Positions 3,695 through 28,624 of a stretch of DNA of 33,417 nt are shown piece by piece. Both the position numbers and the translations under genes were made by a program. Under the pieces are notes generated by a model that saw only the letters and a program-made list of their open reading frames with translations, was not told the DNA's origin and did no database searches. The stretch's first letter is position 1; each line of letters opens with the position of its first letter. The stretch is from Porphyromonadaceae bacterium CG2_30_38_12 (GTDB lineage: Bacteria; Bacteroidota; Bacteroidia; Bacteroidales; Paludibacteraceae), in contig MNZK01000103.1 in assembly GCA_001873635.1 (NCBI GenBank), positions 1 to 33,417 on the forward strand, read 5' to 3'.

Positions 3695-3716
3695 ATACTC
3701 AATAAATTAAAATTTT

Positions 3717-6700: not shown

Positions 6701-8105
6701 CAAACTTTTTAAAGCTTTTTCGCAAGCCGACACTTCTACTACACGGCGTTATGGTGGCACCGGTTTGGGATTAATTATTTCCAATTCATTAGCGCAAAAA
6801 ATGGGTGGAAGTATAGGTTTTCAGAGCGAATATGGCAAAGGAACAACTTTTAGTTTTAACATAACTTGTGATTATGCTTGTGGTGAAAGGCTTGATTATA
6901 AAAATATTAAAAAAATTAGTCGGGTGCTTGTGGTGGACGATAATGCCAACAATCGGTCTATTTTAGAAAATACTTTAAAGTATTGGAAAATTCAATTTCA
7001 GGGTGCCGAAAGTGGTGCACAAGCACTTCAACTGATAGCACAAGATGAAAAATTCGACTTGATCATTATGGATTATCACATGCCCGAAATGGATGGTTTG
7101 GAAACTATTGCTCGCATACGTGAAACGATGAAAGATTTTGCCTGTCAGCCAATTATTATGCTACATAGTTCGTCCGACGATATGACTTTGCACGAAAAAT
7201 CGAAAGCACTAAAAGTACGGTTCTTATTAACAAAACCTGTGAAGCAAGATGAACTTTATTTTTACCTCAACAGTGTGCAGTGTGACGATAGTGTCAACGA
7301 ATCATTGTTGTCGGATACACAGAGTGAACAGATTCAGCCTGAATTGCTTAAGACAAAGGCTTATAACATTCTTGTTGCCGAGGATACGCCAATGAATATG
7401 CTCGTAATTGGTAATATGTTGCGTTCATTTTTACCAAATTTCAATTTGTTCGAAGCGCATAACGGAATTGAAGCTATACAGCAGATGAAGCTTTTAGAGC
7501 CCGATGTGGTATTGATGGATGTGCAAATGCCTGAGTTGGATGGGTTGGAAGCTACCAAACAAATTCGCCGTTTGAAAAACGGACGTGTGGTGCCCGTTAT
7601 TGCCCTTACGGCTGGTGTGTCCAAGGAGGAACGCGAATTGTGTTTCAAATCGGGCATGGACGATTTTATTTCCAAACCCATTGAACGAATTGAATTGAAA
7701 CGAATTGTGGAGAAGTACTTGTTTGATAGCAAACAAGTTAAGCAAGTGGAAAGTGCCGCAGAAAAAGCTGATGACTATCAAATTCCAGCAGTATCGAGGC
7801 ACTTCAATCGCGAGCAACTGCTTTCGAAAATTGGTTCGGAGGATATTTTGAAAAGTCTGTTGGATATGGCAAGACTTGAATATCCGAAATATATTGCCGA
7901 AATTGCTGATGCCATAGTGCATACCGACGAAAAAGAAATAAAACAAAAAGCGCATAAACTAAAAGGCAGTGCGCTGAATATGGAATTTGTAGGTATGGGT
8001 GAGTTGGCAAAAGCCATCGAAATGGATGCCGGCAATCCCAAAGCTCTAAACGCACTTATGCAGCAATTAGAGTTGGAATGGAATGAGTTAATAAGCTTGT
8101 TTTGA
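3717..8105 (+). CDS. Membrane hybrid histidine kinase (7TM, 2x PAS, 2x GAF, HisKA, HATPase, 2x receiver, HPt)
   Basis: A very large (1462 residues) membrane-bound hybrid kinase. Residues 1-230 contain about seven hydrophobic helices resembling the histidine-kinase N-terminal 7TM region. Two PAS domains (about 238-345 and 345-465) and two related GAF domains (about 463-625 and 640-805, both with a DRSYI motif and an EWCA motif) follow. The H-box [12 protein letters not shown] gives His835, and the ATPase shows DTGIGI and GGTGLGL. Two receivers follow (Asp1119 in [12 protein letters not shown]; Asp1268 in [11 protein letters not shown]), then an HPt domain (AHKLKG, His1413). It lies 22 bp after the previous kinase. 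Its catalytic core closely resembles that of the next gene, which suggests tandem duplication. The signal is unknown. Confidence 0.93.
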
Positions 8106-8164
8106 GTAAAAAGCTGAAAAATAAGAGCAATAAAGAAAGAATTAATCCATACAAAGGAAATTTT

Positions 8165-11017: not shown

Positions 11018-11072
11018 TAATTCAATTTTTTACAAGGAACGAATAGAAATAATAATTTTAACAAATATAACC

Positions 11073-12167
11073 ATGAAAACAAACAATGAAGATAAATTAA
11101 TTTTAATTATCGACGATAATCCAATGAATTTGCTGCTTACCTCCAAAATTTTGGAGGGTTTCGGCTTTCGAACTACTACTGCCGAAAGCGGACCTGAAGG
11201 CATTGAAAGTATAGAAAAATCAATTCCAGACCTCATTTTATTGGACATTAGCATGCCCGATATGGATGGATATGAAGTGTGCGAAATTATTAAAAAGAAT
11301 GATAAATGGAAGGAAATCCCCATAATTTTTCTGACAGCTAACACCCAGATGGAAGATTTGGTAACTGGCTTCGAAAAAGGTGGTGTAGATTATATTACTA
11401 AACCTTTCAAGAGCGAAGAACTATCCGTGCGTGTAAAAACGCACTTAGATTTGGCAGCATCTAAACTCGAAATTATTGCTATGAATCGGCAGCGCGACAA
11501 GCTCTATTCCATCATTGCACACGATATTCGGTCTCCTCTTTCGGGCATTCTGCAAACCATCGATGCCATCGAACAAGGTTTTTTTGACCCAACAAGCGAT
11601 GACTTTAAAGATATTATTCACCATTTGCGCGAACGCACTCACGAAACGAGTACCTTGCTAACCAGTTTGTTGCAATGGACCCGAATCAAAGGCGACCGCG
11701 TGAGCATAGAACCTAAGCAAACCAATATGTTTGTAGTAGTTACAAGTTGTGTGCAGCTGCTCGAAGCTAATGCAGGTATGAAGGACATTAATATTCACAT
11801 TGACTCAGACCCTAACGCGGTGGCTTGGTGCGATGAGGTTTCGATGCATACCGTAATTCGAAATTTAATTACAAATGCTATTAAGTTTACGCCCAATAAT
11901 GGAAATATCTGGATAAAAGCGCACCAGGTTGACCAAAAAGTTATTCTCGAAGTGGTGGATAGTGGTATTGGTATGGCAAGCGATACGATTGATAAAATTT
12001 TTCAGCGAAACGAACACTTTACCAGCTCTGGCACCAACAACGAACAAGGAACAGGTTTGGGATTGATGATTGTGAAGGAATTTGTTGAAAAAAATAATGG
12101 TAAGTTGCATGTGGATAGCGTAATTGGCAAAGGAACATCTTTTGTAATTGAATTGCCAATTAATTGA
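11073..12167 (+). CDS. Receiver-histidine kinase (REC, HisKA, HATPase)
   Basis: A 364-residue soluble protein with the receiver at the N-terminus (acidic pair in IIDDN, Asp58 in LLDISMPDMDG, Lys in ITKPF). It is followed by a HisKA domain with H-box AHDIRSPLSG (His150) and a HATPase domain with NLITNAIKF, DSGIGM and GTGLGL. It has no sensory domain, so its input is probably phosphoryl transfer to the receiver, for example from the upstream hybrid kinases or their HPt domains (inference). It lies 55 bp after the third kinase and 51 bp before the NtrC-type regulator, so it may be the last kinase in the relay. An AAGGAA stretch lies about 35 nt before the start. Confidence 0.92.
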   Translation: MKTNNEDKLILIIDDNPMNLLLTSKILEGFGFRTTTAESGPEGIESIEKSIPDLILLDISMPDMDGYEVCEIIKKNDKWKEIPIIFLTANTQMEDLVTGFEKGGVDYITKPFKSEELSVRVKTHLDLAASKLEIIAMNRQRDKLYSIIAHDIRSPLSGILQTIDAIEQGFFDPTSDDFKDIIHHLRERTHETSTLLTSLLQWTRIKGDRVSIEPKQTNMFVVVTSCVQLLEANAGMKDINIHIDSDPNAVAWCDEVSMHTVIRNLITNAIKFTPNNGNIWIKAHQVDQKVILEVVDSGIGMASDTIDKIFQRNEHFTSSGTNNEQGTGLGLMIVKEFVEKNNGKLHVDSVIGKGTSFVIELPIN

Positions 12168-12218
12168 TTTTGTGTAATCTATGAATAAAATAATTTTTCT
12201 GTAAAAAGTAAACATAGT

Positions 12219-13598
12219 ATGGAAGAGCCGCTTGTAAATATTCTAATTATTGATGACGATCCGATTTATAGACGATTGTCGTCTTCTATTCTTAAAGAAC
12301 GATTCAACGTTTTTGCCGCTGAAGCACCATCTGTAGCCTTTCAAATTCTCAAATCACAAAAAATTCATTATGTGATTTGCGACTATCGCTTGCCCGAAAT
12401 GGATGGTTTGGAGGTTTTAGCTAAAATAAAATCAGATTATCCCTCTGTGGAAGTGATTATGATTAGCGATTCGGGCGATATGGATACGGTTATTGAAGCC
12501 TTGCGTAGAGGTGCGGCAGATTATTTTAAAAAACCATTTACGCCTACCGATATTTGGATGTCTATCGAAAAAGCTCAAAAATTAGCAGCGCTCAAACAAA
12601 GTTATTTCTCCGAAAAAAATAAAAATACCCAGCTCAAACAAATTGTAGATAGAGAGTTTGGAGTAGAAATGATTGGTAGTTCCAAGGCTATTGCCGAAAT
12701 AAAAAACCAAATGCGAATGGTTGCTAAAACCCCCGATACATCGGTGCTTATTCTTGGCGAAAGTGGTACTGGTAAGGAATTAGTAGCTCGTGGCATTCAT
12801 AACTTAAGTAAACGGAAAGAGGAATTTTTTGGGGCTGTGAATATGTCGGCTATTCCCGAAAATTTGTTCGAAAGTGAATTTTTTGGTCATAAAAAAGGAA
12901 GTTTTACGGGTGCTATTGGCGACAAGGCGGGATGGTTCGAAACTGCTAACAAAGGGACGCTATTTTTGGACGAAATTGGCGAAATGACACCAAACTTACA
13001 AGTGAAACTCCTTCGCGTGCTCGAGGATAGAACTTTCACAAAAGTGGGAACGCAAAATGCTCATCCTTTCGATATTCGCATAGTGGCTGCTACTAACAAA
13101 CCTATGGAAATTATTTCCTTAGGCAAAGAATTTCGCATCGATTTGTTTCATCGCATTGGCACTTTTATTATTTATTTGCCACCATTGCGCGAACGCATCA
13201 GCGACATTCCGGAATTGGTAAAATATTTTGTGGATATGTTTGCTCTCAAAATGGGTAAATCTATTACTAAAATTCAACCGGAGGTTATTGATCTCCTTTC
13301 CAATTATACTTTTCCGGGAAATATACGTGAGTTGCGTAATATTCTTGAACGAGCCGTGATTTTGTGTACAGACACTACCTTACGCCCCGAAAGTTTTTCG
13401 CTCATGAATACGATCATGAAGTCCGAGAAAACTTCGGATTTTGGTTTAAATACTTTAAACTTGGAAGAGGTTGAAAAATTGGTTATTCTTAGGGCATTAG
13501 AAATATCCCGAAACAATAAATCGGAAGCTGCACGATTGCTTAACATTGAATGGAATGCACTTTACAGAAGACTTCAGAAGTTTGCTATCAAAATTTGA
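12219..13598 (+). CDS. NtrC-family sigma-54-dependent response regulator
   Basis: A 459-residue enhancer-binding protein that would activate transcription by sigma-54 RNA polymerase. It has a receiver (residues 1-120; Asp55 in [11 protein letters not shown]), an AAA+ domain with Walker A GESGTGKE (180-187), the sigma-54-contact loop as GSFTGA (227-232, a Ser variant of GAFTGA), Walker B LFLDEIGE (Asp251, Glu252), and a C-terminal Fis-type helix-turn-helix (415-459, with [10 protein letters not shown]). It ends the kinase cassette and is the only DNA-binding output in it. A good -24/-12 promoter lies 112 bp downstream, in front of the LruC-type lipoprotein gene, which makes that gene a likely target (inference). 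Confidence 0.95.
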
Positions 13599-16046: not shown

Positions 16047-16412
16047 ATGAAAAAGAAAATTTTAATTGTAGATGACAAAACAGAATTTCGCAGATTGACA
16101 AAAACGATTTTGTCGAGTGCCTATTTAGTAGAAAGTGCCGAAAACGGACAAGATGCTATAAATTTGCTTCAAAATGGTTTTATGCCCGATTTGATTGTGA
16201 GCGACCTTATGATGCCTGTTGTAGGTGGTAAAGATCTTGTAGATCAACTAAAAGCCTCTGGTGCTTGGAAAAATATTCCAATCATAATTCTATCCAGTAT
16301 TGATAAAAGTGACGAGAAAATTAAACTCATTAAAATGGGTGTCGACGATTATTTGGAAAAACCATACAATCCGCAAGAGCTATTAGCGCGCATCGAAAAA
16401 TTGTTGAAATAA
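16047..16412 (+). CDS. Single-domain response regulator
   Basis: A 121-residue protein made only of a receiver domain. It has the acidic pair in IVDDK, the phospho-acceptor Asp53 in VSDLMMP, a Ser in ILSS and the conserved Lys in LEKPY. Without an output domain it would act by protein contact or as a phosphate shuttle or sink. It lies 57 bp before the sugar transferase that carries a degenerate receiver and probably shares its transcript. The context suggests that phosphorelay state could act directly on EPS synthesis (inference). Partners cannot be read from the sequence. Confidence 0.92.
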   Translation: MKKKILIVDDKTEFRRLTKTILSSAYLVESAENGQDAINLLQNGFMPDLIVSDLMMPVVGGKDLVDQLKASGAWKNIPIIILSSIDKSDEKIKLIKMGVDDYLEKPYNPQELLARIEKLLK

Positions 16413-16469: not shown

Positions 16470-17603
16470 ATGAACTGTAACATTGCATATCTCGGTCAAA
16501 ATAAAGAACTTATCGACCGGCTGTCGGCTCCCAATTCCAATTTTAAGGTATCGGTGATTGAAAAACCATACGAAATTATTAAACTTCATGAAAATATTGA
16601 TTTGATTATTTACGAAGAAAGTGAGACTGACAACAATTCCATTATTTTGATTAATTTGGTGAAAACCTTGAAAAAACATAAAATTGTTTTTTTTGCAATT
16701 CGTAAACAGCTTGCAGTAAGCGAGTTTTTTAAATGCGGCGTTCATGATGTGTATGATCTGGATGCATCACCGCAAGCTATCCTAAAGCGCTTTGAGTTTG
16801 TAAAAGCAAATTACGATGCATTGGGAACGAAAAACAAAGAATCGATAGATGGTTTCAAAATTCCGATTTGGAAACGTACTTTTGACATTTTGTTTGCCGG
16901 AACAGTTTTACTTTTTTTGCTTCCTATTTTCTTAGTCATTGTTATAGCTATTCGGTTAGAGTCTAAAGGTAAATTTTACTACGCTTCGCCGCGCATTGGC
17001 ACTGGATATCAGGTCTTTGGTTTCCTCAAATTCAGGAGTATGTATGCCGATGCTGATAAACGTGTAGATGAATTGATGAAAAAAAATCAATATCACGTTG
17101 CAGCCGAGTTGGAGGAAGAGCCTGAACTTATCGCCTCTTATGAACATATTGGAGGCGATGATGTCGTACTTATTCACGACGATGGATTTATTTCGGAAGA
17201 TAAAGTGAAAAAGCAGAAGGCTGTGAAACGCGAAAATGCATTTTTCAAAATGGCTAACGACCCACGTATCACCAAGGTTGGTCGCATATTGCGCAATACA
17301 AGCATCGATGAGCTTCCGCAGTTCATCAATGTACTCAAAGGCGATATGTCAATTGTTGGCAATAGACCATTACCACTTTACGAGGCCGAAATGCTCACTA
17401 CCGACCAATGGTCGAAGCGCTTTTTAGCTCCTGCTGGTATCACTGGTTTGTGGCAGGTTACCAAGCGCGGCGGTGCTAACGTGATGTCAGCCGACGAACG
17501 TAAACAGTTGGATATAGAATATGCTGAGAATTTCTCGTTTTGGTACGATATAAAAATCCTGCTCAAAACAATCCCGGCTATGATTCAACACGAAAATGTT
17601 TAG
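16470..17603 (+). CDS. Initiating sugar-1-phosphate transferase with N-terminal pseudo-receiver
   Basis: A 377-residue member of the bacterial sugar transferase family. Such enzymes start EPS repeat units by moving a sugar 1-phosphate from a nucleotide sugar to undecaprenyl phosphate at the inner membrane. Residues 130-377 form the transferase: WKRTFDI and one membrane-inserting hydrophobic helix, KFRSMYADADKR, the catalytic-type pair in TSIDELPQ, MSIVGNRPLP and GITGLWQV. About 55 extra acidic and basic residues (196-250) interrupt the catalytic domain. Residues 1-120 resemble a receiver fold but lack the acidic pair and the Lys, and have Glu49 where the phospho-Asp would be (DLIIYEES). The multi-helix N-terminal membrane region of WbaP/WcaJ-type enzymes is absent. 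The nucleotide-sugar donor cannot be predicted. Confidence 0.9.
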   Translation: MNCNIAYLGQNKELIDRLSAPNSNFKVSVIEKPYEIIKLHENIDLIIYEESETDNNSIILINLVKTLKKHKIVFFAIRKQLAVSEFFKCGVHDVYDLDASPQAILKRFEFVKANYDALGTKNKESIDGFKIPIWKRTFDILFAGTVLLFLLPIFLVIVIAIRLESKGKFYYASPRIGTGYQVFGFLKFRSMYADADKRVDELMKKNQYHVAAELEEEPELIASYEHIGGDDVVLIHDDGFISEDKVKKQKAVKRENAFFKMANDPRITKVGRILRNTSIDELPQFINVLKGDMSIVGNRPLPLYEAEMLTTDQWSKRFLAPAGITGLWQVTKRGGANVMSADERKQLDIEYAENFSFWYDIKILLKTIPAMIQHENV

Positions 17604-17703: not shown

Positions 17704-19356
17704 ATGCGTTCAACATCAGCAAGATTTATGTCCAAGGTTCTTCTAATGAGTATTTTACTTGTGAATTTTGTAATGCTTGAACCAGCATCTGGTACGAGTT
17801 TTTCAATTGGCTTGGAACTTTCTGTGGTGGATGCTAACCTGCTTGGAGTAATGCCTGGCGATACATTAATTTTAGAGCCTGGGAAAAGACGCGTTATTCG
17901 TATTAATAATATCAAAGGAGACTCATTAAATTATGTTTTGATTCGGAATGGAAATGGCGATGTAATTATTGAAAATGATGATCTTTATTATGGCTTTGTA
18001 ATATCAAATTCAAGTTTTTTCAGGCTCACAGGTAATGTAAACAATGAAAATAATTTTGGCATTAAAATATTAAAAACTGGTAAAGGCGCTAACGGCTTGG
18101 GCATTGGCGAATTAAGTACCAATTATGAAATAGACCATTTAGAAATTGCTAATACCGGTTTTGCTGGAATATTTGCTTTTTCGCAGCCAACCTGTGATTT
18201 GATTGCCAATAGAGGATTTTTTGAACAACGAAATTGTATTTTTCGGAACAATTACATTCACGATACCTATGGAGAAGGTATGTATTTGGGGCACTCGTTT
18301 TACACTGGCTACACTATTAAGTGCAATAAGGAAGATACAAAAGTTTATCCGCACGAAATTAAGGGATTAAAAGTTTATGATAATTTGGTTGAAAATGCTG
18401 GTTACGATGGTATTCAGGTTGGATGTGCCGTTGAGGGTACAGAAGTTTATAACAACAAAATTTTAAATTACGGTACTGCCAACGAGATAATGCAACATTC
18501 GGGTATTCAAATTGCTGCGGGAACAAAAATCAGGTGTTACAACAATCAAATAATCACTGGTTCAGGCACCGGAATAACCATGATGGGGCTTGCAGATAGT
18601 TATATTTATAATAATTTGATTGTGAACCCCGGTAAGGATTTTTTTCCGAACGATGTTGCACTTCGAATTCATGGAATTTTTGTTGATGACCGTTTAATTT
18701 ACAAAGGTACCAGTCATTATATTTTTAACAATACCATTATTTCGCCAAAATCAGATGGCATTCGGTTTATTTCAACCGAAACTTCGAAAAGCTTATTAGC
18801 TAATAACTTGATAGTTAATCCAGGCTCAAATTATACCTACGAAACAAACGATGCAAAGTATATTTATTTGCAAAAAGGCGCAGATGTTCGCTTAGACAAT
18901 AATTTTTTTAGCAATTTTGTTGTACCAACTATGCTTGTTGATAGCCTAAATTCTATTTATGAATCAATTAGTAATTTTCCTCTTTCAGGAAAAGGAATTG
19001 ATATTAGCATATATGGTGTAAACCAAGATTTGATGGGCGTGCCAAGAGCTATGATTCCAAGCATAGGATGTTTTGAATTGCCTGTTAAAAATAATATTTT
19101 CAATGTTAAAAAAGATGATATTGATTTTCTGCTAAATAATGAAACTGGATTAATTCTAATCGAGAATAAATCCATTGATATGATGAAACAAGTTGCAATT
19201 TTTGATTTATCAGGCAGAAAGGTTTTGAATTTTTCTCAAAACGAACCTCGTTTTTTTATGACAAACATCAAAGGACTACTGAGGCAAGGAATTTATATAC
19301 TATCCGTTGAACGAAATAGGTCTGTTTTTAAACATAAGTTTGTTGTTGTAAATTAA
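17704..19356 (+). CDS. Secreted parallel beta-helix protein with T9SS C-terminal sorting domain
   Basis: A 550-residue exported protein with a signal peptide (about residues 1-30, ending near PASG). A long run of right-handed beta-helix repeats follows (about 60-440, many Asn-rich turns such as YDNLVENAGYDG and YNNKILNYG), as in pectate-lyase-like and epimerase folds. The last 80 residues form a type A T9SS sorting domain (VAIFDLSGRKVL, then GIYILSVERN and a basic end). It should cross the outer membrane by the type IX system and be anchored or released. In an EPS operon a polysaccharide lyase, epimerase or binding role is plausible, but I see no specific catalytic signature. A start at Met9 (17728) is possible. 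Confidence 0.85.
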   Translation: MRSTSARFMSKVLLMSILLVNFVMLEPASGTSFSIGLELSVVDANLLGVMPGDTLILEPGKRRVIRINNIKGDSLNYVLIRNGNGDVIIENDDLYYGFVISNSSFFRLTGNVNNENNFGIKILKTGKGANGLGIGELSTNYEIDHLEIANTGFAGIFAFSQPTCDLIANRGFFEQRNCIFRNNYIHDTYGEGMYLGHSFYTGYTIKCNKEDTKVYPHEIKGLKVYDNLVENAGYDGIQVGCAVEGTEVYNNKILNYGTANEIMQHSGIQIAAGTKIRCYNNQIITGSGTGITMMGLADSYIYNNLIVNPGKDFFPNDVALRIHGIFVDDRLIYKGTSHYIFNNTIISPKSDGIRFISTETSKSLLANNLIVNPGSNYTYETNDAKYIYLQKGADVRLDNNFFSNFVVPTMLVDSLNSIYESISNFPLSGKGIDISIYGVNQDLMGVPRAMIPSIGCFELPVKNNIFNVKKDDIDFLLNNETGLILIENKSIDMMKQVAIFDLSGRKVLNFSQNEPRFFMTNIKGLLRQGIYILSVERNRSVFKHKFVVVN

Positions 19357-19397: not shown

Positions 19398-20135
19398 ATG
19401 ATTAGATTATTGATTTTGATAACGTTAGGTTTTGTCCCTTTTATTTCACGGGCACAGTCTTCGGGTGTGATAGCCGATAGCGCAGCGACAAAAGTTTTTT
19501 CAGTCGATAATTTTGAAATTCCCAAACTATCGGTGTGCATTGATAGTGCACTTGCTTATTCTCCGCTTTTAAAAGCAAACGATGAGCAAATAAATATTAT
19601 TCTTGAAGATATTAAAATCAGAAAAAAAGCATGGTTGGAGTATCTTATTATTGATGCAAATACCAGATATGGCTTATTTAATCAATTATCGTTGACACAA
19701 CAAACAGCAAGTGCCGATGTTGCCATTCAGTCGGCAAAGGAACAGTTTAATTATTTTGCCGGACTAACCCTACGCATTCCACTTTCGTATTTTTCGAGTA
19801 ATAAAAATGAACAAAAAAAATTGAAACTAAGCATTAAGGATGCTCAACTTAAAAAAGAAGACTTGAAAAATGAATTAAAAAAATTAGTTGTAACAGAATA
19901 TTTTAAATTAAACAGATTAAAAAATTTAGTTGATGTGCATCTTAATAATCTTCAAACTGCCAATATAGATTACATGAAATCTAAAAATGATGTAAAAGCA
20001 GGTATGGCTACCATGACAGAGTTTGCAGCTTCATCCACAGCCTATGCGAAGGCTGTGGATGCCTTTGTGTCCACAAAAAACGATTATTATGCGCAGTACT
20101 ATATCTTAAATATCCTTATTGGTAAAAAAATATAA
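19398..20135 (+). CDS. Half-length TolC-like outer membrane protein
   Basis: A 245-residue exported protein. The signal peptide ends near FISRAQ. The rest is helical and resembles one of the two outer-membrane-efflux-protein repeats of TolC: SVCIDSALAYSPLLKA near the start, then long amphipathic helices with a possible beta hairpin around LRIPLSYFSS. Full TolC proteins have two repeats and about 430-490 residues, so this one would need more subunits per pore or a non-pore role. It lies 11 bp before the chain-length protein gene, where a Wza-type export lipoprotein is normally expected. It may therefore be the outer-membrane part of the exporter (inference). Confidence 0.75.
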   Translation: MIRLLILITLGFVPFISRAQSSGVIADSAATKVFSVDNFEIPKLSVCIDSALAYSPLLKANDEQINIILEDIKIRKKAWLEYLIIDANTRYGLFNQLSLTQQTASADVAIQSAKEQFNYFAGLTLRIPLSYFSSNKNEQKKLKLSIKDAQLKKEDLKNELKKLVVTEYFKLNRLKNLVDVHLNNLQTANIDYMKSKNDVKAGMATMTEFAASSTAYAKAVDAFVSTKNDYYAQYYILNILIGKKI

Positions 20136-20146
20136 AACTCAACTAT

Positions 20147-22324
20147 ATGAATCTCATTAAGTTCCTGAAAATTATTTACTTAAAATTAATTTATCTAACT
20201 ATCATACCGATAGTAGTAGGAGGAGTTGTTTTTTTTCTGACAAAGGATTTGCCCGTCAAATATACTAGCTTTTCTACTGTTTTTACCGGTGTTACAACGA
20301 ATAATGGGTTGGTTGTTGAATCTATTCGAATTGATAATAATGCAACACAAAGTGAGTATAATAATATCATGACAATGCTTAAGTCAACTACATTGTTTGA
20401 AGATATATCACTTCATTTATTAACACAGCATTTAATACTTACCAAACCTCAAAAGGATATTATTTCTGAAAAATCCTATAAGGAGCTGATGGCTTCCGTG
20501 CCCGATAAAATAAAAAAATTAGTTGTAAAAAATAATTTTGAAAAAACCTATCATAATTTGAAAGCTTACATCGTACACGATGAAAAAAATTACATTTATC
20601 GGCTAATGAATTTTGGACATAAGTATTACGGTATTAACGCAATTTCTAATTTAAAAGCTGAACGATTAACAAACAGCGATTTAATAAAACTAAGTTATGA
20701 GGCTGAAGACCCTGCAATATGTTTTAATACTGTGAAGTTTGCTACACAAATTTTTGTTAAGGAGTACAGTGAAATTAAAGTAAATCAATCGAATTCTGCT
20801 GTTGCTTATTTTGAACAAAAACTAAAAGAAGTATCCGCAAAATTAGAAGAAGCAGAGCAAACGCTCCTCGATTTCAATATCGACAACGACATAATTAACT
20901 ATTACGAACAAACCGAGCAGGTTACTACACAACAAGAAAAGATTGAAGTGCGCCTGCAAGAGGTTAAGATGGAATACGAAGCTTCCGAAGCAGTGTTAGC
21001 CAAATTAGAAAATGAAGTAGAAAAACGCTACAATATTAATTTGCGAAACTCAAAGATAATGCAAATAAGAGATCAATTAGTTGATCTTAACGAAGCTATT
21101 ACTGCCATTGAACTTGAAAATAATAATTCAAACCGTTCAAAAGTAAATGATTTAAAAACCAAAAGGAGAAAAGTAGAAGGCGACCTTGAAAATAAAATCG
21201 ATTCGATGAATATCTTTGATTCTAAAAGTCAGGGAATTGAGTCGCAAAGGCTATTATCCGAATGGTTAGATGCAGTGAAAAACCACGAAAATTATGCTGC
21301 ACTATTAAAATCAATGAAATTGAGGCAAATAGAGTTCATGAAACAGTTTAAAAGGTATGCCCCACTTGGTGCTACGATTAAACGTATTGAGCGTTCAATT
21401 GATGTGTACGAACGCGAGTATTTGAATGTTTTGCACGACTTAGGGTTAGCGCGCCAAAATGAGCAAAGTGTTGATATGCGCTCGAATATGCGTATTCTGG
21501 ATGAGCCAAAATTCCCAATTAATTCCATTCCTTCTAAAAATAAACTTTATGTTGTAATTGCCGTTTTGTTCTCGATTATTTTTTATTTGCTGGCTGTGTT
21601 TATTGTCGAATTGATGGATGCCCGTATGAAATCACCTTCTGTTTTAAAATTGAAAACGGGGTTGGATGTGCTAGCAGCTTTTACGGTAATGAATAAGCGC
21701 AATAAAAAATACATTAACACGGAAATAGTGAATCAACGAGCCTCACTATTGCTTTTCGAAAAAGTGCGAAAATTAGCCTCCGATAATACAAAACCATTTG
21801 TTGTTCAAATTTTTAGTAGCTGGGATGGTGCGGGTAAAAAACTCGTTGCCAATAAGTTTGCTGCTGAAATTGAAAAGCATAACTTTAGCGTAAATATAGT
21901 AAGTTTTTGTAATGATGAAGATGATAATGGTGGGGTAAGCGATGCTCAATCCGAGCCCTTTACTATTGCAAATTATTATTCTGAAATAAATAGCTTTGAG
22001 AATTACAATCAGTTCATATTAGAAAAAAAGATTACTTCCGACTACTTACTATCAATTTTTCCACCTGTTAGCACTGGTATCGACAATACAGTTATAGTTT
22101 CAGTTCCTACTGCCAATTTTATTGTTTATGATGCCAACACATCATGGGCAGATGCCGATATTTTTATGCTCGAAAAACTTAAATCAGTGCTCTCCGAAAA
22201 TAGTTTATTTGCCGCTCTTACGTATGCTCAACCAGATAATTTAGAGGAAATGTATGGCGATATTCCGAAAAAGCGGTCGTTTATCCGCAAATTGATTAAA
22301 AAATTGTTGAAAAGGGTTATGTAG
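20147..22324 (+). CDS. Wzz/Wzc-like polysaccharide co-polymerase with degenerate kinase domain
   Basis: A 725-residue inner-membrane protein. One transmembrane helix lies near residues 10-30. A large periplasmic part follows with long coiled coils (about 210-440). A second helix (about 465-490, LYVVIAVLFS) leads to a cytoplasmic domain. Such proteins control chain length and couple to the outer-membrane exporter. The cytoplasmic part is positioned like a BY-kinase, but the P-loop is only SSWDGAGKK (around residues 557-565) without the Ser/Thr after the Lys, and the C-terminus (KKRSFIRKLIKKLLKRVM) is basic with no tyrosine cluster. Autophosphorylation as in Wzc is therefore unlikely. It lies between the TolC-like gene and the polymerase-like gene with 11 and 19 bp gaps. 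Confidence 0.88.
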   Translation: MNLIKFLKIIYLKLIYLTIIPIVVGGVVFFLTKDLPVKYTSFSTVFTGVTTNNGLVVESIRIDNNATQSEYNNIMTMLKSTTLFEDISLHLLTQHLILTKPQKDIISEKSYKELMASVPDKIKKLVVKNNFEKTYHNLKAYIVHDEKNYIYRLMNFGHKYYGINAISNLKAERLTNSDLIKLSYEAEDPAICFNTVKFATQIFVKEYSEIKVNQSNSAVAYFEQKLKEVSAKLEEAEQTLLDFNIDNDIINYYEQTEQVTTQQEKIEVRLQEVKMEYEASEAVLAKLENEVEKRYNINLRNSKIMQIRDQLVDLNEAITAIELENNNSNRSKVNDLKTKRRKVEGDLENKIDSMNIFDSKSQGIESQRLLSEWLDAVKNHENYAALLKSMKLRQIEFMKQFKRYAPLGATIKRIERSIDVYEREYLNVLHDLGLARQNEQSVDMRSNMRILDEPKFPINSIPSKNKLYVVIAVLFSIIFYLLAVFIVELMDARMKSPSVLKLKTGLDVLAAFTVMNKRNKKYINTEIVNQRASLLLFEKVRKLASDNTKPFVVQIFSSWDGAGKKLVANKFAAEIEKHNFSVNIVSFCNDEDDNGGVSDAQSEPFTIANYYSEINSFENYNQFILEKKITSDYLLSIFPPVSTGIDNTVIVSVPTANFIVYDANTSWADADIFMLEKLKSVLSENSLFAALTYAQPDNLEEMYGDIPKKRSFIRKLIKKLLKRVM

Positions 22325-22343: not shown

Positions 22344-23822
22344 ATGAGCTTAAATCCAACGTATTTAGATAATAAAGTGAAACATATCTTACTGGTTTCT
22401 TCAGTGGGTATTAGCTTTGTTATACTTATCGGTGGGGCTATTTTCTTTTTTTCTAAAGATAACTTTATTGCAGGTATAGCTCTTTTAATACTTCCAGGTC
22501 CAATCATTTATCTGTATAAATTTTTTACGGATCCTCGTATAGGATTTTATTCCGTATTAGTGGCAAATTATTTTGCTATTGGTTTGTCACGCTACATTCC
22601 AGCTCCATTAGGCTTAACGGTTGATGGTTTATTAGTCCTTACTTGGTTATCAGTTATTTTTAGTCAGTTCAATAAAAAAGTGCAATGGAAAAATGCTGGT
22701 CGCGATTTTTCATATTTTGTCATTATTTGGTACACGATGACATTCCTTCAACTTTTTAATCCAGAGGCTGTTAGTCGCGAGGCTTGGTTCTACGCCATGC
22801 GAGGGCAGGGTTTGTATATTTTTCTTACCGTACCACTTACCTATTTAATATTTAATAAACCCAAAGACCTCGATATTTTAATAAAATTAACGGCTTGGTT
22901 TACTATTGTTGCTATTATCAAGGCATTATCTCAAAAATACATTGGTGTCGATCAATGGGAATCGCGTTGGTTAAATCAGCCCGGAAACCGATCTACACAC
23001 ATACTATTTGGACAATTGCGGGTGTTTTCTATTTTTTCAGATGCTGGTACTTTTGGAAGCTCAATGGGCTATTTTTCAGTGCTTTACATTGTACTCGCTA
23101 TTCACGAAGCTAAAAAAAGTTTGAAGTATTTTTATTTGGCTATTGGTTTTATGTCGTTTTTTGCTTTGATGATTTCTGGTACACGGAGCGCCATAGCAGT
23201 GCCTTTAACGGGCTTTGCTGTATATGCATTTCTTTCTAAGCGTGTTACTGTTATCGTAAGTGGTGTAACGCTTATGGTGTTGATATTTGTTTTTTTCAAA
23301 TATACGAATATTGGGCAGGGTAATTACGAAATTAGGCGTATGCGCTCAGGATTTTCGGAAGATAATGCTTCGATGGATGTACGAAACGATAATCGAAAAA
23401 TCTTTGCCGACTACCTCAAATCCAGACCTTTTGGTGGAGGGGTAGGCTCTGCCGGAAACTGGGGAATGCGCTTTAGCCCAGGTACATTGCTTGCCGAAAC
23501 TGCAACTGATGGTTTTTACATTCAGATATGGGCTGAGCAAGGTATAGTTGGACTAATTTTTTATTTAATAATGATTTTTTATATTGTTGGAAAAGCATCG
23601 TTTTTAGTGTTTTTCCGTTTAAAAAAACCGGAATATAAATACAAGGCAATGGCGCTAACAAGTGGCATGTATGGGCTTATTGTTTCATCTTATACGGCTT
23701 CGAGCTTAGGTCAATTACCCAATTTAATCATTGTTTTTGCAAGTATGGCTATGATTTCGCTTATGCCAGAGTGGGAAAAAAACGAAGCAGACGCAATTCT
23801 TGTTGAAATAAATAATAAGTAA
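22344..23822 (+). CDS. O-antigen ligase/Wzy polymerase-like membrane protein
   Basis: A 492-residue polytopic membrane protein with about 10-12 hydrophobic helices. The large periplasmic segment and the flanking pattern (SGTRSAIAVPL, and later GGGVGSAGNW with a following ETATDGFYIQIWAEQGIVG) are those of the O-antigen ligase/polymerase family. It would polymerise lipid-linked repeat units in the periplasm, with the co-polymerase encoded just upstream (19 bp). Ligase and polymerase cannot be told apart by sequence in this family; the operon context favours Wzy-type polymerase. Confidence 0.85.
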   Translation: MSLNPTYLDNKVKHILLVSSVGISFVILIGGAIFFFSKDNFIAGIALLILPGPIIYLYKFFTDPRIGFYSVLVANYFAIGLSRYIPAPLGLTVDGLLVLTWLSVIFSQFNKKVQWKNAGRDFSYFVIIWYTMTFLQLFNPEAVSREAWFYAMRGQGLYIFLTVPLTYLIFNKPKDLDILIKLTAWFTIVAIIKALSQKYIGVDQWESRWLNQPGNRSTHILFGQLRVFSIFSDAGTFGSSMGYFSVLYIVLAIHEAKKSLKYFYLAIGFMSFFALMISGTRSAIAVPLTGFAVYAFLSKRVTVIVSGVTLMVLIFVFFKYTNIGQGNYEIRRMRSGFSEDNASMDVRNDNRKIFADYLKSRPFGGGVGSAGNWGMRFSPGTLLAETATDGFYIQIWAEQGIVGLIFYLIMIFYIVGKASFLVFFRLKKPEYKYKAMALTSGMYGLIVSSYTASSLGQLPNLIIVFASMAMISLMPEWEKNEADAILVEINNK

Positions 23823-23843: not shown

Positions 23844-24899
23844 ATGAAAACAAGTCGATTAGATAAATTAGAAGCGGTGCGTGGTTTTGCTGCTCTATAT
23901 GTGGTGTTTTTTCATGTTTTACCTCAAAAAATATTTTTGTTTGGTGTAAATATAGGTTTTCTTTTTCGCTTTGGACCCGAAATGGTTATCGTTTTCTTTG
24001 TGCTTTCGGGCTTTGTAATAAAATTTACGTATGAGCGGTCGCGCGATAAATCTTTTGGTTATTACTTTATTAGGCGCTTTATTCGATTGTACATTCCGCT
24101 TCTATTAGTTTTTATAATGGCTTATCTTATAAAATGTTATGAGGCTGGAGGCTGGGCTAATCCTGAAATTAAATACTTAATTGGTAATTTGTTTATGTTG
24201 CAGGATGTAATTTCGCTCAAACCAAATGTGATAGTTCCTGCTTATTTAGGAAATGGAGTACTCTGGTCGCTTTCGTACGAATGGTGGTTTTATATGCTGT
24301 TCTTTGTTCTTGTTACCTACGTTAAACCTGAAAGAATAAATAAATTCGTAACAATTTTGACGATTGTAGCGGCTGCCACTTATTTAATTTATCCATTCAT
24401 AGTAAACCGTCTGGTTATGTATTTTGCAATTTGGTGGACAGGCGTTCGATTTGCCGATATGTATCTCAAAAAAGAGGAATTTAATTTTCGAGCTGTTTTT
24501 CCTCAAGCCACTTTATTGCTTTCCATTTCAATAATTTTAGCTGTTAATTTGAAATTGAATTTTGAGTTTACGAAAATTTACGCTTACCCTTTAGTTGCTT
24601 ATCCTTTTGTTGAATTACGCCATTTTGTTTTTACTATTATAGTTCTTTTTGGTGCTATACTTTGGAAAAAACTCAATTGGTTTGGCTTCGATTTGTTTGT
24701 CGGGAAATTCAAATACCTCGCTTCCAGCTCGTATGTCATTTATATAGCCCATCATTATTTAGTTATCGAAGCGCAGTATTTTAATTTTCTAAATAATAAA
24801 ATTATAGAATATGGACTTTATATTATTATACTTTTAATATTCTCCTATTTACTCGAAGTCGTGGTGTATAATCGCATAAAAAATAAAATTCTGAAATGA
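23844..24899 (+). CDS. Membrane acyltransferase (acyltransferase 3 family)
   Basis: A 351-residue polytopic protein of the OafA-like acyltransferase 3 family. The N-terminal motif LEAVRGFAALYVVFFH carries the conserved Arg13 and His24. Further family features are GPEMVIVFFVLSGFV, the RRFIRLY segment and about ten hydrophobic helices. It would transfer acyl, typically acetyl, groups to sugar hydroxyls during EPS assembly. It starts 21 bp after the polymerase-like gene. The acceptor sugar is unknown. Confidence 0.9.
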   Translation: MKTSRLDKLEAVRGFAALYVVFFHVLPQKIFLFGVNIGFLFRFGPEMVIVFFVLSGFVIKFTYERSRDKSFGYYFIRRFIRLYIPLLLVFIMAYLIKCYEAGGWANPEIKYLIGNLFMLQDVISLKPNVIVPAYLGNGVLWSLSYEWWFYMLFFVLVTYVKPERINKFVTILTIVAAATYLIYPFIVNRLVMYFAIWWTGVRFADMYLKKEEFNFRAVFPQATLLLSISIILAVNLKLNFEFTKIYAYPLVAYPFVELRHFVFTIIVLFGAILWKKLNWFGFDLFVGKFKYLASSSYVIYIAHHYLVIEAQYFNFLNNKIIEYGLYIIILLIFSYLLEVVVYNRIKNKILK

Positions 24900-25009: not shown

Positions 25010-26182
25010 ATGCTACTAAAGGGTGAAAATATTATTTGTATTGCCAACACAAGCTGGTTTGGTAACTATGCCAAATCCACTGTTCAGATTATGGAGCGGT
25101 TGGCAAAAAACAATCGGGTGCTTTTTGTGGAATATCCTTACACCATAAAAGATGTATTTGCCACCTGGCGTCACAAACAGAGTGCTCCTGTAAAGCGCAT
25201 GTTGGGTTTTGACAAGCGACTTCAGATTATCGAATCTCCCGTAGGCAGTAGTGCTTACAATTTGGTAATTCCACCCGGAATACCTGTGTTTTTTCTTAAA
25301 AATGAGTTCCTTTTTAGGCTTTTATTTCCCATCAATGTTTTTATTTATTGGCTTACGGTACGATGGGCTATTCGAAAACTTAATTTTAGCAACCCTATTG
25401 TTGTTACGGCATACAATCCCATTTACGGATTGTATTTGCTGCGTAAATTCAACGAAAAAAAACACGTTTATTATTGTTACGATGGTGTAGAATCTGTTTT
25501 TTTTGGTCAGCGTATTTTCGATATAGAGCGTCGGTTTTGTCAACAGGTAGATGCCATAATTACTACATCCGATTTTCTTAACTCTAAGAAAAAACTTTTA
25601 AATTCACACTGCAATGTGGTTAAAAATGGTGTTGATTTTCCTCTTTTTCAGCGTTTTGCAAAGCATAATGTGTTTCAACGAACATGTAAAAAAGTGGGGT
25701 TTATTGGTAGCCTCGATCCCCGATTCGATATAGATACTATGGAATATGTGGTGGCAAAAATGCCCGATTTCGATTTCCATTTCACTGGCGATATGCGCAA
25801 TGTAGCACTCAAATCACGTTTAGCCAAATTTGTAAACGTACAATTTTTTGATCCCATTAAGCCTAACGATGTTCCACCGCTATTGGCTACCTATGATGTG
25901 GGTATAATACCCTACATTGTAAACGAAGTGAACAAAAATATTTATCCTTTAAAGATAAACGAATATTTATCTGTTGGGGTGCCTGTTGTAATGACGGCTT
26001 TTGCCATACTTCCCGAATTTGATACCATGGTGAGTATTGCTACTAACAAAGACGAATTTGTTGCGCAACTAAGAGCCGAAACAAAGTATGATAATACAGT
26101 AAAAATAAAGCAACGCATAGAGTTTGCAGCCTCCAATTCGTGGGATGCCCGTACCGAACAGTTCGGCGATTTATTAAATTAA
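25010..26182 (+). CDS. Glycosyltransferase, GT4-like
   Basis: A 390-residue probable cytoplasmic glycosyltransferase of the two-domain GT-B type. Supporting features are the N-terminal beta strand and loop (ENIICIANTSWFG), the start of the second domain (KKVGFIGSLDPRFD), and near residue 317 the donor-binding style segment KINEYLSVGVPVV. It should add one sugar of the repeat unit from a nucleotide sugar; the sugar is unknown. A 110-bp AT-rich gap separates it from the acyltransferase, the longest gap in the later part of this operon. Confidence 0.85.
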   Translation: MLLKGENIICIANTSWFGNYAKSTVQIMERLAKNNRVLFVEYPYTIKDVFATWRHKQSAPVKRMLGFDKRLQIIESPVGSSAYNLVIPPGIPVFFLKNEFLFRLLFPINVFIYWLTVRWAIRKLNFSNPIVVTAYNPIYGLYLLRKFNEKKHVYYCYDGVESVFFGQRIFDIERRFCQQVDAIITTSDFLNSKKKLLNSHCNVVKNGVDFPLFQRFAKHNVFQRTCKKVGFIGSLDPRFDIDTMEYVVAKMPDFDFHFTGDMRNVALKSRLAKFVNVQFFDPIKPNDVPPLLATYDVGIIPYIVNEVNKNIYPLKINEYLSVGVPVVMTAFAILPEFDTMVSIATNKDEFVAQLRAETKYDNTVKIKQRIEFAASNSWDARTEQFGDLLN

Positions 26183-26221: not shown

Positions 26222-27157
26222 ATGAACTTCAGAAACATTGAAAATTTAAACGAAGTAATTCTTCGACGTCTTAGCATTTTACCGCGCGATTTCGATTTGA
26301 TTGTAGGTATTCCGCGTAGTGGTATGTTGCCAGCTAACTTGCTGGCTTTGTATTTGAATAAACCCTATACCGATATGCACTCGTTCAAAAATGGACATAT
26401 CTACAAAGCTGGCGAGCGAGGGCAATTTTTTGATATGAAGCAATTTAAAAAAATTCTCATTGTGGATGATAGCATTGCCTCCGGTTCGGCAATGACCAAA
26501 TCGAAGCAAGAGTTACAAGCCTTGAGTGCCGATTTTGAACTGAGTTTTTGTGCTATTTATATCATTCCAGGCAAAGAAAGTATGGTGGATTATTTTTTCG
26601 AAATTGTGCCCTTACCGCGCTATTTTCAGTGGAATATCTTCAATCATACTACCTTGGATAAGGCTTGCTTTGATATTGATGGGGTGCTGTGTGTCGATCC
26701 TACAGATGCGCAGAACGATGATGGTCCTATCTACACCGATTTTATTCAGAATGCACCTCCCTTGTATATCCCAGGTGCTTGCATTGGCACTTTGGTTACC
26801 TCGCGACTTGAAAAATACCGACCTCAAACCGAAGCTTGGCTCACCAAAAACAATGTGAAGTACAACAAATTAGTGATGCTCGATTTGCCCGATGCCCGTG
26901 CCCGCCAAAAAGCCAACAACCATGCTCAACACAAAGCGAATACCTACAAGCAAAGTGAGTATAACTTGTTTTTTGAAAGTTCGCTGCAGCAAGCTTTGGA
27001 AATAAACCGCCTCACAAGTAAACCTGTATTTTGTGTCGAAAATTTTGAGATGATATTTGAGGCGCAGTCGCTGGCTTACAATGTGAAAAGTGGTAAGTAT
27101 TTCCCTGCTTTGAGGCGTATAGCTTTGAAAGTAAGAGATAAATACTTCAGAAAATAA
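26222..27157 (+). CDS. Phosphoribosyltransferase-HAD phosphatase fusion, candidate ribofuranosyltransferase
   Basis: A 311-residue two-domain protein. Residues 1-140 form a type I phosphoribosyltransferase: IPRSGMLPAN gives the pyrophosphate loop and ILIVDDSIASGSAM (V81-D82-D83-S84) the PRPP-binding loop. Residues 147-290 form a HAD-family domain: motif I FDIDGVL with Asp151 and Asp153, a motif II-like LVTSR, and a later FFESS with PVFCVEN. Dual-domain ribofuranosyltransferases described for Klebsiella O antigens use PRPP to add phosphoribose to a glycan and then remove the 5'-phosphate with a HAD domain. The same pairing in an EPS operon suggests this role. Nucleotide salvage is the main alternative but fits the context less well. 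Last gene on the + strand; it converges with the next gene. Confidence 0.8.
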   Translation: MNFRNIENLNEVILRRLSILPRDFDLIVGIPRSGMLPANLLALYLNKPYTDMHSFKNGHIYKAGERGQFFDMKQFKKILIVDDSIASGSAMTKSKQELQALSADFELSFCAIYIIPGKESMVDYFFEIVPLPRYFQWNIFNHTTLDKACFDIDGVLCVDPTDAQNDDGPIYTDFIQNAPPLYIPGACIGTLVTSRLEKYRPQTEAWLTKNNVKYNKLVMLDLPDARARQKANNHAQHKANTYKQSEYNLFFESSLQQALEINRLTSKPVFCVENFEMIFEAQSLAYNVKSGKYFPALRRIALKVRDKYFRK

Positions 27158-27202: not shown

Positions 27203-28624
27203 TTAAATTAATCCCCTACCGGCTAATTTAAACCAGCTCCATGCTACAATGGCTACAAAAATAAAAATCAACCAATAGTTGTAGTATTTTTTTGATTGAT
27301 TGTTCATAAGCGAAACTCCATAGGCGGCAAAAATTAGCAGAAACGGAAGGGCAGGTAAGTGAAAACGCTCCGACTGGGCAAAAGCACTGAAGGCAATAAC
27401 CATTAAATAGCCTATTGTAAACGAACCTACTAATAAATAGTCGCGCCAACGGTTTTCTCTTATCACGCGCAGCAGAACAAGTATGACAAAAAACGCCATG
27501 ATGTTTTTTACATAGTTCCCGCCATGTATTAACTGTTGATTGTCTTGCCCGCTAATATAAATCATAGTGGGGAAGGGGATAACGAATATCATTGGCGCAA
27601 AAACAGCGGCTCCGGCATAGGTTGCAAACCTATTGCCACCCTCGCGTGTGGCTCTGTATTCTAACATTTTATCCTGGTTACCCTCGCGAGCAGACCACAG
27701 TTCTTGTATTTCTGTAGCAATTGTACCACCAATAAAAAACGATACAGTTACGGCAACCCATATACCCAATACTATTTTTTTCTGCATCTTTAACACTTTT
27801 TTGGATGTTAAAAACACCGCAGTAAACAGAGCAAACACAGTGGTAGCTGCCAAAGCAGTGCGATACATAAACAAATAGGAAGCAATGAGCATGATAGGAA
27901 CTATAGCTTTAAATGTAAAATCGCGACCCCGCATAAGGTAATCGGCACGTTCCACAAAAAGTACAGTTAGAAACACCATTTCGGTTTCTTTCAGGTGCAT
28001 GGATGTATAATAAATAAAGTTGGGCATGAGCATTGCGAAAATGGCTGCCATTTTGCCTACCTTTTCACCAAAGGTGCGATTAGCTAACTTGTAAACCAGC
28101 ACACACATCCACGCACTCCATAGCGCTTTGACAATGCGAGCCAAAAATATCGACTTAGCAGTAAGCGCATAGATGATACTTAGGTAAATGGGATAACCCA
28201 TGTCCGAAATAGAAATGCGACTATCTTGTGTTAAAAACTGAGTTGTTAAATTAAATTTGCCATCCCACAAGCATTCGGCTCCAAACTGTGCAATGCCATG
28301 ATAGAACATTACATCACCGGGTGAGTATTCGAATGGCTGCCCCGTAAGGAAAGTATATAAAAAATACATGACAGTAACATAAACAGCACGAATAATAAAA
28401 GCTGTCCAAAACAATTTTTTTATAAAATTTTTCTCCGGAAGCTCCTCCCACTTTCGGGTAAGTTTTTTTGCTCCGTTAAAAAACCCAAGTACTGCCACTA
28501 TGCCAAATAGCCACCATATAAGGGGCATGATGTAACTATTGAAGACCGCATTTACTAATAGTAATACCACCAAGTAGAATTTTACTGCTTTGGAAGTGAA
28601 GTAATTTGGAAAGTAGTTGAGCAA
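27203..28624 (-). CDS. GT-C-like polytopic membrane protein (putative glycosyltransferase)
   Basis: A 473-residue protein with about 11-12 hydrophobic helices. The first extracytoplasmic loop carries an acidic motif in EYSPGDVMFYHGIAQFG. It is followed by MGYPIYLSIIYAL and a helix ending in MLMPNFIYYTSMHLKE, the pattern of GT-C (PMT/ArnT-like) glycosyltransferases that use polyprenyl-linked sugars. It could add a sugar to the lipid-linked or exported glycan on the periplasmic side. It could also be an unrelated EPS membrane protein such as a second Wzy. It lies 4 bp after the GT4 gene in transcription order and converges with the phosphoribosyltransferase fusion, with 45 bp between stops. Confidence 0.65.
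   Translation of the reverse strand: MLNYFPNYFTSKAVKFYLVVLLLVNAVFNSYIMPLIWWLFGIVAVLGFFNGAKKLTRKWEELPEKNFIKKLFWTAFIIRAVYVTVMYFLYTFLTGQPFEYSPGDVMFYHGIAQFGAECLWDGKFNLTTQFLTQDSRISISDMGYPIYLSIIYALTAKSIFLARIVKALWSAWMCVLVYKLANRTFGEKVGKMAAIFAMLMPNFIYYTSMHLKETEMVFLTVLFVERADYLMRGRDFTFKAIVPIMLIASYLFMYRTALAATTVFALFTAVFLTSKKVLKMQKKIVLGIWVAVTVSFFIGGTIATEIQELWSAREGNQDKMLEYRATREGGNRFATYAGAAVFAPMIFVIPFPTMIYISGQDNQQLIHGGNYVKNIMAFFVILVLLRVIRENRWRDYLLVGSFTIGYLMVIAFSAFAQSERFHLPALPFLLIFAAYGVSLMNNQSKKYYNYWLIFIFVAIVAWSWFKLAGRGLI

Follow-up and report, generated by a model that had tools for sequence, protein, structure and literature searches.

A PRT-HAD fusion encoded among EPS genes

Could a protein that joins a phosphoribosyltransferase (PRT) to a HAD phosphatase, and whose gene lies among EPS genes, transfer ribose from PRPP to a glycan, and would it do so by a different route from the ribose-adding enzymes already described? 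This question was raised by an original prediction for a 33,417-nucleotide stretch of Porphyromonadaceae bacterium CG2_30_38_12 (the whole stretch analysed here, hereafter the window), in which a single gene was read as a fusion of this kind. The open reading frame at 26222–27157 (plus strand, ATG start) does encode such a protein of 311 aa, as judged from the ORF list, the translation, Pfam, and AlphaFold2, and both motifs on which the reading was based, VDDSIASGSAM and DIDG, are found in its translation. PF00156 spans residues 20–117 (E 2.4e-8, past the Pfam cut-off) and the HAD part starts at about residue 148 (Pfam, model), which places the PRT at the N-terminus and the HAD at the C-terminus. 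The top NCBIfam match was the orotate-PRT-like subfamily PRK02277, far under its cut-off (9.1e-7). When the full-length AlphaFold2 model (pLDDT 87.0, pTM 0.77) was compared to solved structures with Foldseek, it matched type I PRTs, with XGPRT/HGXPRT chains on top (E from 2e-8).

The EPS setting was likewise borne out by the upstream genes of the window. The operon is headed by a response regulator (16047–16412, domain scan) and continues, all on the plus strand, with an initiating polyprenyl glycosylphosphotransferase of the Bac_transf type (16470–17603, domain scan), an outer-membrane OEP-domain protein (19398–20135, Pfam), a Wzc-like chain-length protein (20147–22324; GNVR region and NCBIfam chain-length models, all below cut-off), a Wzy_C family polymerase/ligase (22344–23822, Pfam), a membrane acyltransferase of the Acyl_transf_3 type (23844–24899, Pfam), and a GT4 glycosyltransferase resembling TuaH (25010–26182, Pfam and NCBIfam). 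From the initiating transferase up to the PRT-HAD gene, no Wzx or GT2 gene was recognised on this strand. Beyond the PRT-HAD gene, the minus strand carries GT4, hexapeptide, and GT2 genes, which may complete the EPS set of the window. Upstream of the operon, positions 974–13598 hold hybrid histidine kinases and a sigma-54-type response regulator. A gene for a beta-helix protein with a Por secretion tail (17704–19356) breaks the otherwise conserved operon order; the cluster whose representative shares these domains was present in 11 of the loci surveyed below.

A retained PRPP site and an altered purine site

PF00156 was detected in all 42 family members scanned (E up to 0.01), and residue conservation was counted across 104 distinct proteins, obtained from 119 gathered sequences. 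Two loops of the window protein are expected to contact PRPP: the pyrophosphate loop GIPRSG (residues 29–34, 26306–26323, plus strand), whose role is assigned by homology to type I PRTs, and the PRPP loop IVDDSIASGSA (residues 80–90, 26459–26491, plus strand), located in the family alignment. Within these loops, Asp83 is invariant (104/104), Asp82 is found in 99/104 members (Glu in 4), Arg32 in 101/104, and Ser33 in 103/104, while Asp83, an acidic residue (Asp or Glu) at 82, and Arg32 occur jointly in 101 of the 104.

The purine site presents a different picture. In profile alignments (E up to 0.001) to the four best solved purine-PRT relatives (4trb, 4z1o, 1vdm, and 7kl6), all four carry an Asp aligned with residue 86, in the PRPP loop, and a Lys aligned with residue 115, ahead of the hood, two residues that we take to read the 6-oxopurine base. 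Each of them was found in a single member of the PRT-HAD family (Asp86 in 1/104, Lys115 in 1/104), so that this feature of 6-oxopurine PRTs is absent; the commonest residues are instead Ala at position 86 (74 members) and, at position 115, Ile (39) or Val (25). Since the PRPP residues are conserved and Asp86 and Lys115 are gone, the PRPP site appears to be retained and purine recognition to be lost. Adenine and orotate PRTs also differ at these two positions, and the loss of these residues alone leaves room for other nucleobases.

In the alignments to the purine PRTs shown, the hood motif F-x-W-N, with Trp137 in 104/104 and Asn138 in 101/104 family members, falls on their hood tryptophan motif. 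Given this alignment, the acceptor may still be aromatic, and the invariant Trp137 together with the near-invariant Asn138 suggests that the protein probably remains specific for some acceptor. Calling the PRT part classical, as the original prediction did, is in line with the matching of purine PRTs by both profile and fold, known glycan PRTs having been compared by description. PRT-HAD proteins have their fold and PRPP-binding motifs in common with type I purine PRTs (XGPRT, Sulfolobus HGXPRT/GpT) but lack the base-recognition Asp and Lys, carry a fused HAD domain, and are encoded in an EPS context.

A HAD half with a complete motif set

Sequence relationships of the C-terminal half are weak. 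No Pfam HAD model matched this half of the window protein at E up to 1, and across 37 relatives Pfam matches were weak as well, the commonest being HAD_SAK_2 (11/37, best E 0.012). Modelled separately (pLDDT 89.0), the HAD half gave a single Foldseek match at E <0.001, to Pnkp1 (8.9e-5), followed by the T4 Pnkp 3'-phosphatase (3.6e-3), and Pnkp1 was also first in a profile search (E 8e-4). The HAD assignment therefore combines weak fold and profile matches with a complete set of motifs. On the plus strand of the window, these are motif I (DIDGVLC, residues 151–157, 26672–26692) and motif II (TSRLEKYR, residues 193–200, 26798–26821), both from the family alignment, and the putative motifs III (Lys238, 26933–26935) and IV (FFES, residues 250–253, 26969–26980), which were assigned by inference, Lys238 and Glu252 each being kept in 102/104 members. 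All five residues of the set (D151, D153, T193, K238, and E252) are present in 102 of the 104 distinct members; the two others are PRT-only paralogues (L114 and L115).

Only 41 residues separate the catalytic residues of motifs I and II (151 to 193), and the model places a single 9-residue helix there. The polynucleotide 3'-phosphatases Pnkp1 and T4 Pnkp represent the nearest fold and a weak sequence likeness. T4 Pnk carries an acidic pair in motif IV. PRT-HAD differs in that its motif IV reads E-S and its chain has no kinase domain. Overall, structure prediction and fold search support a type I PRT fold for the first half of the protein and a weakly Pnkp-like HAD for the second.

Conserved association with EPS operons

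We next examined gene neighbourhoods at 90 loci, of which 80 were from GTDB and 10 from other genomes (two of these 10 with a PRT-only paralogue); the gene could be placed in 89, and L122 was left out. The upstream neighbour lies on the same strand as the gene in 85/89 loci and the downstream neighbour in 73/89. Neighbours were grouped into 180 clusters, 20 representatives were scanned by Pfam, and profiles of the EPS clusters were then applied to the loci, one Wzx cluster (cluster 18) not being among the profiles behind the counts within four genes given below. The recurrent order was response regulator, Bac_transf, OEP, Wzc-like, Wzx-like, Wzy_C, PRT-HAD, GT2, GT4, TuaH-like GT4, hexapeptide transferase, and GT2, in which the Wzx-like cluster is without a Pfam match and has 8–9 hydrophobic segments in the eight members shown.

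An EPS gene was found at most four genes away, on either strand, in 86/89 loci, and directly adjacent in 84/89. This left three loci, L067, L125, and L124, the last a 3.3-kb contig. When six genes were considered, no core family out of six was found at L067 or L034, and L034 has a pyruvyltransferase alongside. For the 52 GTDB loci with twelve neighbours, GT2 was found in 51, GT4 in 50, TuaH-like GT4 in 50, Wzy_C in 49, and Wzc in 47, and all six core families in 37. In a control restricted to 1.5-kb flanks, EPS genes were detected at 23/25 PRT-HAD loci compared to 0/30 salvage HGPRT (hpt) loci and 0/7 other PF00156 genes of the window's genome, figures to be read as a contrast and not an unbiased rate, since the profiles were trained on the PRT-HAD family's own neighbours and favour PRT-HAD loci. 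Fourteen of the 25 control PRT-HAD loci share an identical protein with one of the training loci L018–L097; among the remaining 11, some of which share genomes with the longer stretches L118–L125 that also trained the profiles, EPS genes were present in 9 and absent in L008 and L009. Homologues hence adjoin EPS genes and not the salvage genes that the original prediction had weighed as the opposing outcome.

These data bear directly on whether PRT-HAD might be sited in EPS operons by chance, as a standard enzyme of purine or cofactor salvage or as a PRT-type regulator without catalytic function. Purine PRTs are the closest relatives of the PRT domain, and annotation pipelines label relatives "phosphoribosyltransferase family protein" (plasmid records), which would suit such a role. 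Against it stand the loss of the purine-recognition Asp and Lys, the separate canonical hpt elsewhere in the window genome, and the conservation of EPS operon membership across Bacteroidota families, and we regard this explanation as highly improbable. Its salvage form was rejected on the combination of context (hpt loci 0/30, PRT-HAD loci 23/25) and lost base-recognition residues, and the retention of the HAD catalytic residues in 102/104 members argues against a pure regulator.

The TuaH-like GT4 is a frequent companion, with relatives at most six genes from the PRT-HAD gene in 71/80 GTDB loci. Across 36 genomes of the same genus, 13 carry PRT-HAD (E 1e-10) together with the TuaH-like GT4 (E 1e-40) and the other 23 carry neither, and the operon's Wzc (E 1e-60) occurs in 10 of the 36, all within the 13 PRT-HAD carriers. 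Of the 24 genomes sampled elsewhere in the order, one carries PRT-HAD alone and one the TuaH-like GT4 alone (PRT-HAD thus being found in 14/60 related genomes), and in 395 Bacteroidota genomes PRT-HAD was detected in 10, the TuaH-like GT4 in 18, and both in 4. A strict partnership between the two was therefore rejected: it is perfect in the genus and broken in the rest of the order and in the phylum sample.

Comparison to known ribose-adding enzymes and proposed mechanism

Dual-domain ribofuranosyltransferases have been summarised previously (PMC11127046). Experimental work shows that PRPP transfer with subsequent dephosphorylation by a HAD is workable chemistry for glycans, as described for the Klebsiella O4/O7 enzymes (PMC11231755), for Hib Bcs3 (CriT-CrpP; PMC10299916), and for Campylobacter Cj1432 (PMC12096443); each places ribose-5-phosphate from PRPP onto a sugar before the phosphate is removed. 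As these sources describe them, such gPRT-PRP enzymes resemble PRT-HAD in uniting PRPP-using and HAD domains in one chain amid polysaccharide genes, and a location in a glycan biosynthesis locus holds for PRT-HAD too, the Rhizobium branch excepted. Three differences emerge from the same descriptions. The HAD precedes the PRT in Bcs3 and Cj1432 (PMC10299916, PMC12096443), the reverse of the order in PRT-HAD; the PRPP loop of PRT-HAD has a contiguous Asp-Asp, whereas the two acids of CriT come from different elements (PMC10299916); and CrpP has a large helical cap comprising residues 393–490 (PMC10299916), a cap for which the 41 residues of PRT-HAD leave no room.

Known ribofuranosyltransferases, such as CriT or the T. 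composti protein, were absent from the best 60 of 86 PRT-profile matches and from all 20 HAD-profile matches, and also from the best 50 of 1291 Foldseek rows for the full-length model and the best 50 of 885 for the HAD half. Because domain order, cap, and PRPP loop differ and no known member was among the matches shown, PRT-HAD was not filed as a gPRT-PRP; we provisionally set it apart from that family on the published descriptions of the latter, and propose that it works alike. In the open-licence literature, a search for a described PRT-HAD of this type brought up, among the papers listed, known families only. Ribose in the EPS of carrier organisms was not reported in the titles and abstract openings of the open-licence papers listed on that subject, and the PRT in one of them is PyrE (PMC9723704).

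With the same two activities in one chain, a like locus, and no need for a ribose-activation gene, PRPP transfer followed by dephosphorylation is the most likely chemistry here, and we consider it fairly probable that PRT-HAD works as a glycan phosphoribosyltransferase that uses PRPP and brings its own phosphatase, acting on a glycan or lipid-linked acceptor. The type I PRT domain would bind PRPP via its canonical pyrophosphate and PRPP loops, as their conserved residues suggest, and would, at the inner membrane, transfer ribose-5-phosphate onto a sugar hydroxyl of the lipid-linked EPS repeat unit. Transfer would presumably be inverting, giving a beta-ribofuranoside, and the HAD domain, given its conserved catalytic residues, would then take off the 5'-phosphate. 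The dephosphorylated ribose could next be extended by the following glycosyltransferase, perhaps the commonly adjacent TuaH-like GT4, which may act on the new ribose by analogy with the GT4 domain of Cj1432, described as acting directly on the newly added ribose (PMC12096443).

The acceptor could in principle be the lipid carrier itself. PRT-HAD would then be a polyprenyl phosphoribose synthase that places ribose-5-phosphate onto undecaprenyl phosphate. Trimmed by the HAD, the product would be a lipid-linked ribofuranose donor, used outside the membrane for side chains that are added later, much as in the three-component systems. A precedent is described in PMC11127046, in which HAD-UbiA polyprenyl phosphoribose synthases (Citrobacter ORF15), also encoded in a polysaccharide locus, combine a HAD domain with a PRPP-using UbiA-type transferase for lipid-linked phosphoribose chemistry. 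The transferase of Citrobacter ORF15 is an integral membrane UbiA protein, whereas that of PRT-HAD has a type I PRT fold and no transmembrane segments by hydropathy scan. A basic C-terminal tail (residues 284–311, 27071–27154, plus strand, net charge +8 by charge count) could keep the protein at the membrane, and the charge is a family trait (tail median +8, body median −1, n = 103 members). A membrane-binding amphipathic tail was rejected, since the hydrophobic moment was not clearly above that of shuffles (p < 0.05 in 12/103 members); the description "basic tail" stands. A gene for a 12-TM GT-C-like glycosyltransferase on the minus strand (27203–28624), convergent with the PRT-HAD gene, adjoins it in the window and would suit later side-chain addition, but no GT-C family was found in the 20 neighbour-cluster representatives scanned, out of 180 clusters. 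On balance, a polyprenyl product seems unlikely.

Direct transfer to a glycan, the reading that we favour, could also be a step towards another pentofuranose, if a partner epimerises the sugar after transfer and dephosphorylation to yield arabinofuranose or xylofuranose in the polymer. PMC11127046 describes epimerisation that follows PRPP transfer in the case of lipid carriers, and genes of the epimerase/dehydratase family lie at most six genes away in 11/80 loci; the other 69 have no such gene among the neighbours in hand, and we judge this outcome very unlikely.

Distribution across Bacteroidota and Alphaproteobacteria

A scan of GTDB contigs identified at least 422 stretches encoding relatives. 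The best 80 of these were retained, a sample that leans to close relatives; they are 59–80% identical to the window protein and aligned from residue 1 to 290 or more, and this near full-length similarity indicates that the PRT-HAD fusion is not a chance event. Plasmid records gave 41 matches, all from Alphaproteobacteria. The family is hence not confined to Bacteroidota, the phylum to which the original prediction attributed the arrangement. A phage or viral origin was rejected, as no match was obtained among 50,697 phage records at E 1e-5, and the 5 IMG/VR stretches that fit the pattern included none encoding a relative, in a search suited to close relatives only.

Genomic context was examined for 10 of the 41 plasmid records. 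In three loci from Paracoccus and one from Rhodobacter, the gene lies amid lipopolysaccharide-biosynthesis, Wzx-type, and glycosyltransferase genes, while the Novosphingobium and Sinorhizobium loci have a Bac_transf gene within 10 kb, and the Novosphingobium locus a Wzc-like gene as well. In Rhizobium, the four annotated loci examined (L013, L014, L128, and L129) all place the gene between a caspase-domain gene and a type VI secretion vgrG. A glycosyltransferase gene is found near all four (Glyco_tran_28_C in the one scanned), and the proximity of type VI secretion genes in this branch sits awkwardly with the glycan reading. These Rhizobium copies have a C-terminal extension of ~120 aa. Rhodobacter sp. 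CZR27 carries two nearby copies on opposite strands (L015, 12001–12975 and 14629–15579), one of which has degraded PRPP and pyrophosphate loops and an intact HAD.

The non-EPS setting of the Rhizobium branch would be in keeping with PRT-HAD making a nucleoside-like metabolite, with a heterocycle being N-ribosylated and then dephosphorylated for polymer decoration or as a signal. Sets of PRT plus HAD have been proposed for tellurite-type operons, and both the conserved Trp-Asn hood motif and a PF15609 (PRTase_2) match in 1/42 members (E 2.7e-4; the window protein was sub-threshold at just 0.096) are compatible with this explanation. The recurrent partners are however glycosyltransferases, Wzy, and Wzc and not heterocycle-forming enzymes, and the PRTase match in PADLOC was weak (E 0.0023), so that we consider a nucleoside-like product quite unlikely.

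Returning to glycan phosphoribosyl transfer, both domains of PRT-HAD seem to come from other superfamily branches than those of the gPRT-PRP enzymes and stand in the opposite order, and the arrangement therefore probably arose independently. We lean slightly towards the broader view that PRT-HAD represents a second, independently assembled class of PRPP-dependent ribofuranosyltransferases, in which an N-terminal classical type I PRT of the purine branch, recruited to make O-glycosides, is followed in the same chain by a HAD phosphatase with a small cap and kinship to polynucleotide phosphatases. Such a protein would be a core enzyme of one type of EPS operon, conserved across Bacteroidota and found also in Alphaproteobacteria. 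Classical phosphoribosyltransferases are known for N-glycosides of bases. If our view is correct, they have also been turned into O-glycosyltransferases of polysaccharides, ribofuranose transfer has at least two evolutionary origins that drew on different parts, and a further non-Leloir glycosyltransferase class is at present annotated as nucleoside metabolism. Many Flavobacteriaceae and Bacteroidales would then be predicted to have ribofuranose in their EPS, and the PRT-HAD gene would provide a marker for polymers containing ribose.

Shorter relatives were also observed. The two PRT-only paralogues (L114, 1489–2199, 237 aa; L115, 1489–2196, 236 aa; with L116 and L117 as context) have lost the HAD core and carry Glu for Arg32, and keep the Asp pair of the PRPP loop and the basic C-terminal tail. 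They sit between GT4 and GT2 genes in the same type of EPS operon, in two genomes of the genus that also carry full PRT-HAD copies. From their sequences, they may be sugar-adding modules by themselves or decayed copies, and the loss of Arg32 weakens the support that they lend. A lone PRT of 136 aa with a PWN hood motif (L002, 1405–1815, minus strand), the second-best match to the PRT-HAD query within the same genome, lies beside what by eye is a photolyase-like gene.
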